NCBI GenBank assembly: GCA_013152685.1
Contig: JAADFX010000043.1
Span: 1-32,726, forward strand
DNA: 32,726 bases
Direction of reading: 5' to 3'
Origin: Methanobacteriota archaeon
GTDB taxonomy: Archaea; Hydrothermarchaeota; Hydrothermarchaeia; Hydrothermarchaeales; BMS3B
In this document: positions 4,720 through 30,055 of the stretch, piece by piece
Position numbering within the stretch: the first letter of the stretch is position 1
How the letters are laid out: every line of letters begins with the position of its first letter
Program-made: the position numbers and the translations under genes
The notes under the pieces: model-generated
Told to the model about the DNA's origin: nothing
What the model saw: only the letters and a program-made list of their open reading frames with translations
The model's database searches: none

Positions 4720-5040
4720 TCACTCCTCCTCGCGCCGGAAGGTTATCCTCACCTCCGCGGGCGTGGCTGCACCGCTCTCAACCTCCACGGCGCGCAGCAG
4801 CGCCGCCGGCACGGCGCAGCCGGGGTGGAGCCTCGCCCGGGTGGCTGCCCTGTAGACGGGCGAGGCGCACATGGGGGCGAGGGCCTCAGCCACCTCCAGC
4901 CTCTCCAGGGCGCCGGCGAATTTTTTCACCCTCTCGCATTCTGAGTTCACGCGCACCCTCACCTCCCTTCCCAGCCTCTCCACCCGTATCCGGGTGACGA
5001 ACCCGCAGGATCCAGGGTCAACCTCAGCGCTGGTGCTCAT
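4720..5040 (-). CDS. Small Cys-containing archaeal protein, possibly DUF6951-like
   Basis: MSTSAEVDPGSCGFVTRIRV...SECERVKKFAGALERLEVAEALAPMCASPVYRAATRARLHPGCAVPAALLRAVEVESG; overlaps the downstream CobW-like gene start by 17 bp. Family name from memory. Confidence 0.6.
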   Translation of the reverse strand: MSTSAEVDPGSCGFVTRIRVERLGREVRVRVNSECERVKKFAGALERLEVAEALAPMCASPVYRAATRARLHPGCAVPAALLRAVEVESGAATPAEVRITFRREEE

Positions 5041-5917
5041 TCTGTGCCTCCAGAAAAGCTCTCAGGGAATCCACATCAATTTCCCTGCCAATTGCCACAA
5101 ACCCCGGCTCCGCCTCTCCGGCGAGCTCCTCACTGCTCACCCTTCCCGAGGAGAGGTCGAAGTACCGGCATCTTCCCCCATACCTGAAGATTCCCTTCGC
5201 CCTTACTATCCTTCCAAACTCCCCGCGCCTCAGCCTCTCGAAGAGCTCCTCCGCCTTCTCAGCGTTCATCTCTCCCGGCTTAGCTGAGAAGGAGTCCAGG
5301 AGGAGATGCACCTCCTCGCCCGCGTCAACCTCAGAGCAGGGCAGCCTCTCGGGGAGCAGCACCTCGCCGAAGGAGGAGCGCAGCACAAGGGCGGAGGGGT
5401 TTATCTCCCCCACCACCCGCTCCACGTACTCGACCTCCCTCTCGCCAGCCAGGTCCACCTTGCTTATCACAACCACCGAGGCGTTTGCTATGGCATCGCG
5501 GCAGAGGCGCCTGAAGCTCCCCATGGCGTAGAGCTCCGGGAAGGAGCTGGCGTCTATTACGTTCACCACGCCGTAAAGCTCAGCAACACCCCTGCGCTCC
5601 AGCCCGCGCAGCGCCCCGACTATGCCCGAGGTGGTGGCGACGCCGCTCGCCTCCAGGAGCACGCGCTCCGGGGAGAACCTCTCCCCGAGCTCCTTAAGCA
5701 CCTCTCCAAGCTCCGCGCGCAGTGTGCAGCACACGCAGCCGCTGGCGAGTTCTGCAACCTTAATGTTCCCCGCGCTGGAGACAAGCTCGCTGTCTATGCC
5801 CACATCGCCGAAGTCGTTGACCACCACGGCGAGACGCGAGTCAGCCCCCTGAACAATTCTGCGTATAAGTGTCGTCTTTCCGGCGCCGAGAAATCCCGAG
5901 ACTAGGGTTACCTTCAT
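5024..5917 (-). CDS. CobW/G3E-family GTPase (putative metallochaperone)
   Basis: MKVTLVSGFLGAGKTTLIRRI (Walker A), CVCCTLRAEL (CxCC), NVIDASSF, VVISKVDL. Confidence 0.92.
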   Translation of the reverse strand: MKVTLVSGFLGAGKTTLIRRIVQGADSRLAVVVNDFGDVGIDSELVSSAGNIKVAELASGCVCCTLRAELGEVLKELGERFSPERVLLEASGVATTSGIVGALRGLERRGVAELYGVVNVIDASSFPELYAMGSFRRLCRDAIANASVVVISKVDLAGEREVEYVERVVGEINPSALVLRSSFGEVLLPERLPCSEVDAGEEVHLLLDSFSAKPGEMNAEKAEELFERLRRGEFGRIVRAKGIFRYGGRCRYFDLSSGRVSSEELAGEAEPGFVAIGREIDVDSLRAFLEAQNEHQR

Positions 5918-19908: not shown

Positions 19909-20057
19909 GGTATGTAAATTTTTTCTCACAGCTTATCCGGTATTTAGAAAAGTTTTGAGCAATCGCCAGTTTTATAAAATTTTATTAAGTGCGTATTAAA
20001 AAAATATATTAAAAAAAATTAAATACCCCGCCCTCCCGTATTATATTGGGGATTACC

Positions 20058-21989
20058 ATGAGGAGGGTTTTGAAACATGGAGCTGTGCCGGCGCTCCTGC
20101 TGGGGCTCCTGCTCCTGGCGGGAAGTGCCGGTGCAGAGGAGTTTAAGGGGCAGTGCAAGACCTGCCACGGTGACGTCTACAGCTTCCTGGAGGAGGGCAA
20201 GCACTCAGCGCTCGACTGCAGCACCTGCCACGGCGACAGCTCAGAGCAGCTCAAGAGCCACATGTCCAGCCCCAAGCAGACAAAGCCCAGCGTCAAGCCG
20301 ATAAAGGAGGGTCCCAAGTTCTGCGGGCAGTGCCACCAGAAGTACTACGAGCAGTACCGCCAGGTGAACTGGAAGTCCACGCCGAAGGTGGAGAAGGGCA
20401 CCCCGGTCGGCCGCGCACCGGCCTTTGACCTGCTGCTACACCGCTACGGCTTCGTGTTTGAGCACGCGGAGCCCAGGAGCCACATCTTCATGCTGCTGGA
20501 CCACGTGATAGTGGACAGGGGCTACAAGGGCAGGTTCAGACTTCAGGACTACAGGCTGTTTGCTCCGCCGGAGGGCTGGGACGGCAACATCCAGAAGCTC
20601 ATAGTGGATGCCGGCAAGAACTACGAGAACGCTCCCTGGAAGGGCAAGCAGGACGTTGCCGGGATAAAGCCCTGGACCTTCGGCGCCGGCAACAGGGTGT
20701 GCCTGAACTGCAAGACCACCGACTACATCGTTGGCTGGGAGACCATATCCAAGGGCGGCAACACCACGGGCTATGCGAAGTTTGTCAGAGCCGGCAACGA
20801 CGTGGCGGCTGAGGACATTGCCAGGGGCACTGTGAAGTACTCCCTCAACTGCGTCCACTGCCACGACCCGCACTTTGCGAAGATGCGCGTGGTCAGGGAT
20901 GCGCTGATAGAGGCGGTTAAGGAGAGGGGACCCTTCCCCTACGACAGCGCAAAGAACAAGAAGGCCATGGAGAAGCTCAGGGTGGTGGCATACCCGGCGG
21001 TGAAGAAGAACTACAGGGAGGTCATAGTCTGGGACGCCGAGGAGAAGGATCCCAAGCTCAACTGGCTCACCTGCGCCCAGTGCCACGTGGACTATGAGTG
21101 CAACCCTGTGACAGACATCAAGACCGACAAGAAGCTCAAGTTCGAGGATCCGCGCACCAACGTCTTCACCTGGCGCAACATTGAGGACGGCTACAAGTTC
21201 TACACCGAGGAGCTGGGAATCTACACCTTCAGGCACGGCATCTCCAAGGCGAGGCTGATAAAGATACAGCACCCCGAGGTGGAGGTCTGGTGGGAGAGCA
21301 AGCACGAGCGTGCTGGTGTCACCTGCATAGACTGCCACATGCCGGAGCAGGACGGCATAAAGCTGCACTCGCCAATAAGTCCGCAGGACGTGGGCGTGGA
21401 CAAAACCTGCCTGAACTGCCACACCAACTGGAACGAGGAGCAGGCGAACTACGTGATTGAGGCGATACAGGAGTACTCCAAGGGCAAGATGCGCGACGCC
21501 GAGTTCCACCTCTCCAGGCTGGTGGAGACCATAGCCTTCGCCGACAAGCTGGGCGTTGACGAGGCAAAGCTGGAGGAGGCCAGGGAGCTGCACAGCAGGG
21601 CGCACATGAACTGGGAGTGGTGGACCGCCGAGAACAGCGACGGCTTCCACGATCCGGACGAGGCCTGGCTGACGCTGGGCAGGGCCTCGAGGCTGGCGGA
21701 GAAGGGCTGGAAGATGCTGGACGAGGAGATAAAGAAGAAGCTGACAGAGATCTCCGCCACAAGGCCCGAGACGGGTGCGGCGCTCGCCGAGGAGTACGAG
21801 AGGCTTGCCAGCAAGTACGAGGAGCTGAGCCAGCGCGTCCAGGAGCTGGAGTCTGAGGTGGAGCAGGTGAAGAGCGCGCCGCCTGCCGCACCGGAGGAGA
21901 AGGGCGTCTGCGGTCCCACCTCGGTGGCTGCGCTTGCCCTTCTGCCAGTGGCGGGCTACGCACTGCTCAGGAGAAGGAGGAAGCTCTGA
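20058..21989 (+). CDS. Octaheme cytochrome c nitrite reductase-like protein (ONR) with CGP-CTERM-like tail
   Basis: Signal peptide; heme motifs CKTCH, CSTCH, CGQCH, CLNCK, CVHCH, CAQCH, CIDCH, CLNCH; HPEVEVWWESKHERAGVTCIDCHMP as in NrfA/ONR; C-terminus KGVCGPTSVAALALLPVAGYALLRRRRKL. Confidence 0.88.
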   Translation: MRRVLKHGAVPALLLGLLLLAGSAGAEEFKGQCKTCHGDVYSFLEEGKHSALDCSTCHGDSSEQLKSHMSSPKQTKPSVKPIKEGPKFCGQCHQKYYEQYRQVNWKSTPKVEKGTPVGRAPAFDLLLHRYGFVFEHAEPRSHIFMLLDHVIVDRGYKGRFRLQDYRLFAPPEGWDGNIQKLIVDAGKNYENAPWKGKQDVAGIKPWTFGAGNRVCLNCKTTDYIVGWETISKGGNTTGYAKFVRAGNDVAAEDIARGTVKYSLNCVHCHDPHFAKMRVVRDALIEAVKERGPFPYDSAKNKKAMEKLRVVAYPAVKKNYREVIVWDAEEKDPKLNWLTCAQCHVDYECNPVTDIKTDKKLKFEDPRTNVFTWRNIEDGYKFYTEELGIYTFRHGISKARLIKIQHPEVEVWWESKHERAGVTCIDCHMPEQDGIKLHSPISPQDVGVDKTCLNCHTNWNEEQANYVIEAIQEYSKGKMRDAEFHLSRLVETIAFADKLGVDEAKLEEARELHSRAHMNWEWWTAENSDGFHDPDEAWLTLGRASRLAEKGWKMLDEEIKKKLTEISATRPETGAALAEEYERLASKYEELSQRVQELESEVEQVKSAPPAAPEEKGVCGPTSVAALALLPVAGYALLRRRRKL

Positions 21990-26269: not shown

Positions 26270-27193
26270 CTACCTCCACCTGTCGAAGATGCTCGCAAGC
26301 CCCCTGGGCTTGAATATCACCATCGCCACCAGCAGGGCGCCGATTATTACAAAGCGCTCGAAGCTCAGCCCCAGGTTTTTGAGGCCCTCCCAGATGAGGG
26401 TCACCACCACGGTGCCCACAATTGGGCCCTCGAGGGTGGCGAGCCCACCAGCTATGGCGTAGATCACCGGCCAGAAGGAGTTGTGCACACTGTATATCTC
26501 AGGGGTGATGTAGGCGAAGCTGTGAGTCTGGAGCGCCCCCGCCAGGCCCGCGATGTAGGTGCTTATGAGAAAGGCCACGAGCTTGTACCTCACCACGTCC
26601 ACGCCGAGGACCTTGGCCTCGAGCTCATTCTCGCGTATAGCCGCGAAGGCAACGCCCAGCCTGGAGCGCATTATCCAGTACACGAGCAGCGTGGTGGCTA
26701 TGGCGAGGAGCAGCATGAAGTAGTACTCGTAGAGGTAGCGGTGCTCCAGGGTGGCGCTGAAGAACCGCCTTGCGGGTATGCCGTCCACACCACCGAAGAT
26801 GTCGGTGAACTGGTTGAGGAATATGGTGCCTATTATTATTGAGAAGCCGAAGGTCACCATCGCCAGGAACCACTCGCGCAGGCGGACGCAGATGGCACCC
26901 ACCAGCAGCCCCGCGAGGGCGGCGAAGCCGGCGCCTATGAAGATGGTGATGAAGGGCGAGAGCTCCAGCCTCGAGGCGAGCAGGGCAGAGGCGTAGCCGC
27001 CTATGCCGAAGAAGGCTGCGTGCCCCAGGGATGCCTGCCCCGAGTAGGTGAGGAGGTTCCAGGAGTGGGTGTATATGATGAAGATGACCATTATTATGAG
27101 CACCTTCATCAGATAGGGGCTGTCTCCGGCGACCAGCGGCAGGAGCAGCCCGGCGAGCAGGGCAGCCGCCCAGAGGAGGTGGGCCCTCTTCAC
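26270..27193 (-). CDS. Branched-chain amino acid ABC transporter permease, LivM-like
   Basis: NLLTYSGQASLGHAAFFGIGGYASALLA...RSRLGVAFAAIRENELEAKVLGVDVVRYKLVAFLISTYIAGLAGAL. Confidence 0.92.
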   Translation of the reverse strand: MKRAHLLWAAALLAGLLLPLVAGDSPYLMKVLIIMVIFIIYTHSWNLLTYSGQASLGHAAFFGIGGYASALLASRLELSPFITIFIGAGFAALAGLLVGAICVRLREWFLAMVTFGFSIIIGTIFLNQFTDIFGGVDGIPARRFFSATLEHRYLYEYYFMLLLAIATTLLVYWIMRSRLGVAFAAIRENELEAKVLGVDVVRYKLVAFLISTYIAGLAGALQTHSFAYITPEIYSVHNSFWPVIYAIAGGLATLEGPIVGTVVVTLIWEGLKNLGLSFERFVIIGALLVAMVIFKPRGLASIFDRWR

Positions 27194-28068
27194 TCCTCAC
27201 CCTCCCCGAAGATTCCATGGGGTCTGACTACCAGGACTGCGATGAGGATGAGGAAGGATATGGCGTCCTTCCAGTGGTTGCCGAAAAGGTAGCCTCCGGC
27301 GTTTTCGGCGATGCCGTAGATGAGGCCGCCCACAATTGCGCCGGGTATGCTCCCCAGTCCGCCGAGGATGATTATGGCGAAGGCCTTGATCGCAGGAAGG
27401 GAGCCGGTGTAGGGGTTGAAGAGCTGGCCGCTTATTGCCCACAGCGCCCCCGCCGCGGCGGCGAGGGCGACGCCGAGGCCGAAGCAGAGCATGTCTATCC
27501 TCTCCACGTTGATGCCCATGAGCTGCGCCGCCTTCCTGTTCTGACTGGTGGCGCGCATCGCCCTGCCCAGACGCGTCTTCTTCAGGAAGAGGTGCAGGGC
27601 GATGAGGATCAGCGCTGTGAAGCCCACCAGTATCACGTAGTCCAGGGGGAGGTTTATCCCGCCCAGGGGGATGGTCTTCGCCGCGTAGGGGCTGTGCATG
27701 CTCCTGAAGTCGTCGCCCCACAGGAAGGCGACGCCGTTCTGGAGGATGTATATTAAGCCCAGGCTGACGAAGATTTCGTTGAGCTTGCCGGTGCCCATGA
27801 TGGGCCTGAAGGCCAGCCGCTCCACGGCTATGCCCAGAAGGCCCAGGATGAGCATCGCCGGCAGAATTGCCAGGTAGGGGTTTATCCCCAGCAGCACCAC
27901 TATCCAGAAGGTGGCGTAGCAGCCCAGCATCAGAAACTCGCCGTGGGCGAAGTTCACCACCTTCATCACGCCGAAGATCAGGGTCAAGCCCGTGGCGAGC
28001 AGCATGTAGATGCAGCCCGCATATATGCCCCAGAAAAGCACCTGCAGTGCTATGCTAAGCTCCGGCAT
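27190..28068 (-). CDS. Branched-chain amino acid ABC transporter permease, LivH-like
   Basis: LTLIFGVMKVVNFAHGEFLMLGCYATFWI...TRLGRAMRATSQNRKAAQLMGINVERID...AFAIIILGGLGSIPGAIVGGLIYGIAE. Confidence 0.92.
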   Translation of the reverse strand: MPELSIALQVLFWGIYAGCIYMLLATGLTLIFGVMKVVNFAHGEFLMLGCYATFWIVVLLGINPYLAILPAMLILGLLGIAVERLAFRPIMGTGKLNEIFVSLGLIYILQNGVAFLWGDDFRSMHSPYAAKTIPLGGINLPLDYVILVGFTALILIALHLFLKKTRLGRAMRATSQNRKAAQLMGINVERIDMLCFGLGVALAAAAGALWAISGQLFNPYTGSLPAIKAFAIIILGGLGSIPGAIVGGLIYGIAENAGGYLFGNHWKDAISFLILIAVLVVRPHGIFGEGEE

Positions 28069-28159
28069 GCCATCACGTGATGTGAATAAAGCGCGGGGAT
28101 TTAAAAAATTTTCCCGGGTTGCCATATAATCTTAAAACGTTAAACACCTGTTCTGAGCC

Positions 28160-28579
28160 ATGAGGCTCGAAATTCCGCTGCTCGGGCTTGCCATCATCCT
28201 GATGTGGGGTCTGTGGGGCTTCCTGTACAAGTACGGTATAGACAGGCTGGGCCTCTTCCGCGCCCTATTTGTGACAAATGTGATGTACATGCTGAGCAAT
28301 CTGGTGATACTCGCCTACCTATACCACAGGGGGGTTGACTTCTCCCTTTCGCCGCCCGCCGCGCTGCTGATGCTGGGCACCGTCCTGGGCGTGGGAGCGT
28401 CGCTGCTCTTCATGCTCGCCCTGGAGAGGTACCCGGGCAGTATAGTGATACCCCTCACCGCCCTGTACCCGGCGGTGAGCGCTGTGCTGGCGGTGCTGGT
28501 GCTGGGGGAGAAGATAAAAGCGGTGAATGCCCTGGGCATCGTCCTGGCAATCCTGGCGGGATACCTGCTCACCAGGTGA
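28160..28579 (+). CDS. EamA/DMT-type single-unit transporter
   Basis: 139 aa, hydrophobic; ALERYPGSIVIPLTALYPAVSAVLAVLVLGEKIKAVNALGIVLAILAGYLL is EamA-like. Confidence 0.87.
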   Translation: MRLEIPLLGLAIILMWGLWGFLYKYGIDRLGLFRALFVTNVMYMLSNLVILAYLYHRGVDFSLSPPAALLMLGTVLGVGASLLFMLALERYPGSIVIPLTALYPAVSAVLAVLVLGEKIKAVNALGIVLAILAGYLLTR

Positions 28580-28620
28580 GTTCTCAAGAAGATTTGATTT
28601 CATAATCAAGATTTTTTTAG

Positions 28621-28635
28621 GAAAAGCTTAAATAT
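28621..28635 (+). promoter_or_regulatory. Putative BRE/TATA element (gaaaagcttaaatat) for the small peptide/radical SAM operon
   Basis: Purine-rich BRE plus CTTAAATAT about 35-40 bp before ATG 28669; SD GGAGGT at 28657-28662. Confidence 0.6.
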
Positions 28636-28668
28636 CTCAGGCACATACCGGAAATTGGAGGTAATTGG

Positions 28669-28776
28669 ATGGACAAAAGCGAAAATGAGAGGGAAATCTG
28701 CTTCAGGTATGAGTGCAGGTACACGGGGGCGGGGCTCACCCACTACGTGATGCAGAGCAGAGAGTCGCCCTTCTAG
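28669..28776 (+). CDS. Candidate radical SAM substrate peptide (35 aa), not in the ORF track
   Basis: MDKSENEREICFRYECRYTGAGLTHYVMQSRESPF*; GGAGGT SD 6 nt before ATG; stop 13 nt before the radical SAM start. Confidence 0.68.
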   Translation: MDKSENEREICFRYECRYTGAGLTHYVMQSRESPF

Positions 28777-28789
28777 GGCAGGTGGTGCA

Positions 28790-30055
28790 ATGCTCCAGGA
28801 GCTCCGCGTTGGGGAGGAGGTGGTATGGTTCGACCCCGAGACCTGCTTCTGGGGTCTGGGGGAGCGGGATAAGCTGGAGGCGCTCCACTCCTGCGTTGAG
28901 GATGAGCTCTCGAGGGAGATGCACGCCCTGCGCAGCTCAGTGGAGGTGGTGATGCTCTATGTGAACCCCACGGACAGGTGCAACGCCTCCTGCCCATACT
29001 GCTACCTCCCGGCGGGCGTCAAATCCCGGGGGAGGTCAATGAGCACCGGGGAGCTGCGCAGGGTGGTGGAGGAGGCGCTGGATTTCTTCGGGGCACGTGG
29101 TGTGGCGGGCTCGGTGGTGTTCCACGGAAGCGAGCCCCTGCTGAGCAGGGAGAGCATCTTCAGCGTGATAGACGAGTACAGGAGGGAGCTCCACTTCGGC
29201 ATCCAGACGAATGGCCTGCTCCTCACCGAGGAGGATGCGGAGTTTATACGGAGCAGGGGTGTGAGAATAGGCATATCCCTGGACTCCCCGGATGAGGAGA
29301 CCAACGACGCCCTGCGCGGGAGGGGGCACTTCCGGAGGGTGTCGGAGGCGCTGAGCTGGCTCTCGGGCTACGAGGGGCTGAGTGTGGTCACCACCATAAC
29401 CAGGCACAACCAGGGGCAGCTGGCGGAGATGGTGAGGTTCCTCCACTCAAGGGGCGTGCCCGTGTGCCTGATGAACCCGGTGAGGCTGACTCAGAGGGGC
29501 TCCCTGTCCCTGATGCCGGAGCCCGCGGAGATGGCCGCCAGCTTTATCAGGGCGGTTGACACCGCCATTGAGCTCACAGGGCAGGGTAGGCGGATTGTGG
29601 TCGCCGACTTCGCCAACCTGCTGCTGGGCATCACAGCGCCCTCTGCGAGGGTGCTGATGTGCGACATCTCCCCCTGCGGCGCCGGCAGGAGGTTCCTCTC
29701 AGTGGCGGCTGATGGCGAGTGCTACCCCTGCGGCGAGTTCATAGGGATGGGGGAGTTCTCCGGGGGTAACATCTTCAGGCGCTCCCTGCCGGAGGTTATC
29801 GACTCCCGGGGCTTTGCCAGGGTGAGGGCCCGGAGGGTGGAGCAGATAGAGGGGTGCAGCACCTGCCCCGTGAGGAACGTCTGCGGTGCCCCCTGCCCGG
29901 CGGAGCTCCACTCCTCAGGCGGCAGCATGCACCGCAGGAGCCACTACTGCGAGTTTTACCTCAGGGTGATAGAGCACGCCTTCAGGGTGGTGCTGCGCGG
30001 CGACCTCTGGCACGTGCTGCGCAGGTCGGCGCTCAGGGAGAAGTTCAGCCTCTGA
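28790..30055 (+). CDS. Radical SAM/SPASM protein, probable peptide-modifying enzyme
   Basis: NPTDRCNASCPYCYLP (CxxxCxxC), GSVVFHGSEPLLS; SPASM-like Cys cluster CDISPCG...GECYPCGEF...CSTCPVRNVCGAPCP...HYCEFY. Confidence 0.92.
   Translation: MLQELRVGEEVVWFDPETCFWGLGERDKLEALHSCVEDELSREMHALRSSVEVVMLYVNPTDRCNASCPYCYLPAGVKSRGRSMSTGELRRVVEEALDFFGARGVAGSVVFHGSEPLLSRESIFSVIDEYRRELHFGIQTNGLLLTEEDAEFIRSRGVRIGISLDSPDEETNDALRGRGHFRRVSEALSWLSGYEGLSVVTTITRHNQGQLAEMVRFLHSRGVPVCLMNPVRLTQRGSLSLMPEPAEMAASFIRAVDTAIELTGQGRRIVVADFANLLLGITAPSARVLMCDISPCGAGRRFLSVAADGECYPCGEFIGMGEFSGGNIFRRSLPEVIDSRGFARVRARRVEQIEGCSTCPVRNVCGAPCPAELHSSGGSMHRRSHYCEFYLRVIEHAFRVVLRGDLWHVLRRSALREKFSL

Follow-up and report, generated by a model that had tools for sequence, protein, structure and literature searches.

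The window analysed here, a stretch of 32,726 nucleotides, belongs to the 1.8-Mb, 96%-complete genome of an archaeon of the Hydrothermarchaeota, which falls into the genus of Candidatus Pyrohabitans jungbluthii JdFR-16. A gene for a radical SAM/SPASM protein (cbpB) is preceded in this window by a short peptide gene (cbpA), and the following features were located at the pair and upstream of it:

28160-28579, plus strand: EamA-type half transporter, 139 aa (PF00892)
28594-28609, palindromic, no strand: perfect palindrome TTGATT-TCAT-AATCAA, candidate cbpAB operator (genus comparison)
28620-28635, plus strand: BRE/TATA-like element GGAAAAGCTTAAATAT (sequence; recurs in the relatives L029 and L040)
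28657-28662, plus strand: Shine-Dalgarno sequence GGAGGT of cbpA (sequence; 6-nt spacing)
28669-28776, plus strand: cbpA, 35-codon precursor peptide gene (TIGR04164 match, ORF conservation, purifying selection)
28790-30055, plus strand: cbpB, radical SAM/SPASM peptide maturase, 421 aa (TIGR04163, PF04055, PF13186)

The cbpA frame extends from the ATG at 28669 to the stop codon at 28774-28776 and encodes MDKSENEREICFRYECRYTGAGLTHYVMQSRESPF (35 aa); 13 nt separate it from the ATG of cbpB at 28790. The 35-codon reading frame, the GGAGGT sequence at 6-nt spacing and the 13-nt gap, all claimed in a first-pass annotation of this DNA, were borne out in the sequence.

The search against NCBIfam models of peptide-modifying radical SAM enzymes that had been proposed with that annotation returned CbpB, TIGR04163, at 484 bits (483.7 against a curated cut-off of 375; residues 4-406 on profile positions 3-424 of 428). 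In the window's genome CbpB alone lies above this cut-off, and the other radical SAM matches there were far weaker. The family is named peptide-modifying by NCBI and has no known non-peptide substrate. The Pfam domains PF04055 and PF13186 were both matched. The SPASM-type cysteine cluster noted earlier is intact and comprises the radical SAM motif CX3CX2C at C64/C68/C71 and the seven SPASM cysteines C296, C314, C356, C359, C365, C369 and C387, with an extra C291; in 48 CbpB homologues all of these were invariant except C359, which was conserved in at least 90%. In the AlphaFold model (pLDDT 93.9) the barrel is preceded by a 45-residue beta3-alpha N-terminus, and no Pfam profile for a PqqD/RRE domain matched the protein. 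The solved structures closest to the fold were CteB (5WGG/5WHY), anSME and ChlB. CteB, the thioether-forming SPASM maturase of SCIFF, was the best match among solved structures in sequence (3e-18) as well as in fold, but it has a longer N-terminal part, with the alignment starting at its residue 93, whereas CbpB has about 45 residues before the barrel. The next-best NCBIfam models were those for ranthipeptide (PapB) and dynobactin (DynA) maturases, which gave 121 bits (cut-off 340) and 128 bits (cut-off 450), respectively. The PQQ and mycofactocin families, where they matched CbpB at all, stayed far below their cut-offs.

The peptide was best matched by TIGR04164 (CbpA), yet with 23.2 bits (E 3.6e-5) it scored under the curated cut-off of 35, so that routine annotation would miss the gene. 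All 46 CbpA peptides tested, the window's among them, matched this model at E < 0.01. In the window's peptide, the family motif C-x(4-6)-GL(S/T)H(Y/F) takes the form C16-RYTGA-GLTHY, within a conserved core at approximately residues 12-27, FRYECRYTGAGLTHYV. In the family alignment Cys16, Gly22, Leu23 and His25 are invariant, and Arg13 (R in 50/59), Ser/Thr24 and Tyr/Phe26 are near-invariant; an SPF tail is present in archaeal CbpA and absent from bacterial CbpA. Based on position and motif, we assign the window peptide as the CbpA of the adjacent CbpB, where a strict score rule would not file it. CbpA/CbpB is thus an already named family, of which the window locus is, judged by these sequence features, a new sub-threshold member.

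The number of residues before the core varies across the family from 1 to about 20, and many homologues are 19-30 aa long with next to no leader (25-28 aa in Archaeoglobi, 19 aa in Methanohalarchaeum). With an N-terminal part as short as one residue and peptides of 19-28 aa, a classical leader does not appear to be general in the family, which makes the division into leader and core suggested for the peptide doubtful. Of the two regions whose conservation was to be checked, the GLTHY portion of YTGAGLTHY held up as part of the family motif, and C-x4-C did not. Residue 11 is Ser instead of Cys in the closest relatives, a second Cys occurs in some lineages only, and C-x4-C was therefore rejected as a functional motif. 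The SCIFF peptide, the substrate of CteB, is Cys-rich, with six Cys in forty-five residues, in contrast to the one invariant Cys of CbpA. The several Cys donors in the core by which sactipeptides and ranthipeptides are recognised were likewise not found, and CbpA differs from ranthipeptides in having no multi-Cys core.

A scan of the genome collection for cbpB gave 67 loci, 61 of which were taken into the motif test; four distant loci (26-27% identity) and two truncated ones were left out. In 59 of the 61 loci a peptide with the motif ends no more than 450 nt ahead of cbpB, and the total of motif hits over both strands of all 61 loci was also 61, so that just two occurrences lie elsewhere. In the two loci without it (L042, L072) the cbpA frame looks interrupted, by MAG error or decay, and inspection of the four distant loci by eye revealed no CbpA-like ORF. 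Moreover, the motif was present in two loci outside those from which it had been defined. One was the single new genome obtained from a test set of 350 Chloroflexota (L129), whose contig starts inside the gene, and the other was the plasmid of Methylovirgula sp. HY1 (L130), on which the cbpAB pair is annotated in RefSeq. On the same plasmid (L130:11759-16708) pqqA-pqqD-pqqE genes lie 3 kb from cbpAB, with another radical SAM gene near. The distance between cbpA and cbpB varied across loci from 17 to about 400 nt. For close cbpA pairs pN/pS was mostly 0.02-0.2, indicating strong purifying selection, and for the window gene and its Pyrohabitans relatives pS was 0.51-0.57 and pN 0.15-0.16. The lack of a conserved short ORF upstream of homologues, named beforehand as a refuting outcome, was thus not observed, and in almost every close pair synonymous change was far above change in amino acids, as expected for selection at the protein level. 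Together with the family match, these results support the pairing of a short peptide with a SPASM radical SAM enzyme.

The promoter region was compared between relatives. The GGAAAAGCTTAAATAT element was seen where it had been claimed and recurs in the corresponding position in L029 and L040, the two nearest relatives (CbpB 68% identical); several other relatives have similar TATA-like A/T runs upstream of cbpA. Its naming as BRE/TATA-like expresses resemblance to the consensus only. The palindrome TTGATT-N4-AATCAA sits just before this TATA-like box. It occurs exactly once per genome in the three cbpAB-bearing Pyrohabitans genomes searched (the window's and those of two congeners), always just upstream of cbpA, and its 16 bases are conserved between species at the above CbpB identity. 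Two congeners in which CbpB was not found (82% and 93% complete) lacked it, as did three genomes of the same family in which CbpB is encoded; a control with the reversed pattern gave 0 occurrences. By its distribution the palindrome looks like a genus-specific, private operator of cbpAB, for which it is a candidate. Conservation of the EamA half transporter gene immediately ahead of cbpAB is confined to the genus of the window (as seen in L029 and L040), and it is doubtful that this gene is part of the cbpAB system.

Genes for DNA-binding proteins were observed beside cbpAB in other archaea. Ribbon-helix-helix regulators are divergent from cbpA in L031, L039 and L044, those of L031 and L044 matching an AIRS domain weakly, and a homologous gene in ANME-1 (L048) is co-directional with cbiMNQO-cbiT; this protein is a candidate archaeal cobalt/cobamide regulator. 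Additionally, winged-helix proteins with DUF7839, which are 63% identical to each other, are encoded divergently from cbpAB at L043:6791-7597 and L033:6103-6891. These two loci belong to distant Hydrothermarchaeota with CbpB in different clades, and the DUF7839 protein is a possible regulator.

In bacteria the pair is linked to cobalamin riboswitches. Of the 21 bacterial loci, 14 carry an RF00174 (Rfam) aptamer ahead of cbpA, in every case on the strand of that gene and at a distance of 81-190 nt from its start; the rest of the 246 kb covered by the bacterial loci gave no match. By their titles, the riboswitch-bearing loci include Actinomycetota, Omnitrophota, Chloroflexota, Planctomycetota, Armatimonadota and Desulfobacterota; the number of independent cases is below 14, as near relatives are included (four Verrucomicrobia-type, two Desulfomonile). 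The bacterial loci L058, L059, L075 and L077 gave no riboswitch even at E 0.05 (L077 and L059 are short contigs), none was found near cbpAB of Methylovirgula, and neither the window nor ten archaeal loci contained RF00174.

Cobalt and corrinoid genes are the second link. Among the bacterial loci without a riboswitch, the pair is flanked by cbiA and cbiM in L062 and by cbiB/cbiA and cbiX in L086, in both cases within cobalamin genes. In ANME-1 (L048) cbiT-cbiO-cbiQ-cbiN-cbiM and the regulator gene are divergent from cbpAB, in Methanoliparia and ANME-1, several lineages of which have a divergent ribbon-helix-helix gene, cobT lies directly downstream of cbpB, and in L034, whose CbpB falls into the group that is sister to the window's, a gene for a NicO-family nickel/cobalt transporter is divergent from cbpA. 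Further neighbours are a pair of metE-like genes upstream of cbpAB in the archaeal locus L085 and, downstream, hemA in L064 and a gene for a hemL-type aminotransferase in L058. In the CbpB tree, from which L087 was omitted due to stops in the chosen frame of its cbpB, both main clades (the ANME-1/bacterial side and the window's side) hold B12-linked loci; neighbour links within one lineage are not independent. No cobalt neighbour was seen for cbpAB of Archaeoglobi and Methanomassiliicoccales. The window itself contains neither the riboswitch nor a cobalt gene adjoining cbpAB, so that the B12 link there rests on its relatives. Members of the CobB/CfbB family were present in 43 of 49 CbpB-positive genomes and in the window's genome as well. 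Judging from 'cobopep', the short name in use at NCBI, its curators may likewise have had a connection to cobalt in mind.

Taken together, cbpA and cbpB probably form a near-leaderless RiPP-like pair that acts in cobalt/cobamide metabolism, and CbpA is very likely the substrate of CbpB. As a dedicated SPASM radical SAM maturase of the 35-aa CbpA, CbpB would use the 5′-deoxyadenosyl radical and its auxiliary clusters in order to cross-link the invariant Cys to a residue in G-x-G-L-T-H-Y. Our guess is that a thioether from the single invariant Cys is the most economical chemistry, because the fold of CbpB is nearest to CteB, anSME and ChlB and because one Cys is invariant. In bacteria cbpAB would be expressed at cobalamin scarcity via the B12 riboswitch; in archaea the pair is found next to genes for cobalt uptake or corrinoids, in some cases together with a DNA-binding regulator encoded divergently. 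Once mature, the peptide would most likely act within the cell on cobalt or a corrinoid, as chelator, chaperone or assembly factor. A precedent exists in PqqA-PqqE and MftA-MftC (mycofactocin), where very short conserved ribosomal peptides are converted by a SPASM enzyme to a cofactor and not to a secreted product. Unlike these two systems, CbpAB is linked to cobalt/cobamide genes and has no PqqD-like partner that was found nearby.

Among the alternatives, the mature peptide could be a B12-sparing cofactor or redox peptide for a B12-independent enzyme, made when cobamide is short. Riboswitch control in bacteria and the metE-like genes of L085 would fit such a role, which we nevertheless regard as unlikely since the linked genes are mostly those for cobalt uptake and corrinoid synthesis and not for B12-independent isozymes. 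Slightly less probable still is that CbpAB supplies or helps to make the lower axial ligand of cobamide, as a peptide-derived base activated by CobT. We know of no chemistry that leads from a CbpAB peptide to a lower ligand. The location of cobT behind cbpB in Methanoliparia and ANME-1 and a CobT-family match in 43 of 50 CbpB-positive genomes are in favour of a lower-ligand role, as are the absence of BluB above cut-off from all 50 genomes (0/50) and the finding that in nearly all CbpB-positive genomes the ThiC family is represented by one protein, which scored as ThiC wherever this was tested, extra paralogues being rare. However, lower-ligand genes remain unassigned for 42% of the bacteria predicted to produce cobamides (PMC6461909), so that a missing BluB counts for little, particularly in anaerobes. 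In Halobacteriota, CobT of the bacterial type showed no enrichment alongside CbpB (10/37 vs 47/210), and the window's genome has no CobT-family match, perhaps due to incompleteness. The comparison within Hydrothermarchaeota (CobT in 10/11 CbpB-positive vs 6/12 CbpB-negative genomes) is not decisive given the small sample and genome completeness.

An ordinary RiPP natural product such as a bacteriocin or signal, as implied by the first-pass annotation, would be in agreement with a short peptide adjoining a SPASM maturase and with ranthipeptide and dynobactin maturases among the nearest families. It is considered improbable in view of a core almost unchanged from Hydrothermarchaeota to Verrucomicrobiota, the B12 riboswitch control and the absence of a conserved exporter, protease or immunity gene from 60 neighbourhoods, in which no third dedicated gene, RRE protein genes included, recurred beyond single lineages. 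The cobalt/cobalamin context, which the first-pass annotation had missed, points instead to a housekeeping metal or cofactor role. There is very little to recommend the view that cbpA merely regulates cbpB as an upstream ORF. Its small size and its constant position ahead of cbpB would fit, and leaders under riboswitch control are known from bacteria, but the variable distance to cbpB, the conservation across domains of residues and not codons, and the membership of CbpB in a peptide-modifying family all speak against this.

For the preferred reading of CbpA as a modified peptide of cobalt/cobamide metabolism, a literature search found no experimental paper on the CbpA/CbpB family and no paper with a short peptide and radical SAM maturase as member of a cobalamin-riboswitch regulon; the function of the family and its riboswitch linkage thus appear to be undescribed in the literature found. 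To our knowledge, no peptide product is known in cobalt or cobamide metabolism. On balance, we lean towards the view that a radical-SAM-modified peptide of archaea and bacteria, made under B12 shortage, is an unrecognised part of this metabolism, as chelator, chaperone or cofactor. If so, cells would answer B12 shortage with a modified ribosomal peptide, cobalt/cobamide metabolism would gain a peptide product, and one peptide would span Hydrothermarchaeota, Archaeoglobi and ANME-1 to Verrucomicrobiota and Desulfomonile. An uncharacterised NCBI family would also become testable, as the bacterial copies would be inducible or repressible by cobalamin. In archaeal genomes, genes of 25-35 codons below the model cut-off can hide functional partners.

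Further genes were observed elsewhere in the window. Two BPD_transp_2 permeases of the branched-chain amino acid type are encoded at 26270-28125 (minus strand), without a recognised ABC ATPase beside them in the window; they adjoin cbpAB in L029 and L040, too. A GTPase of the CobW/HypB/UreG type (PF02492), a metal-handling family, is encoded at 5027-5917 (minus strand), about 23 kb from cbpAB, with no evident link to the pair. Finally, a 647-aa protein encoded at 20046-21989 (plus strand) has matches to cytochrome c552 and to cytochrome c3/c7-type proteins and is a multihaem cytochrome candidate.
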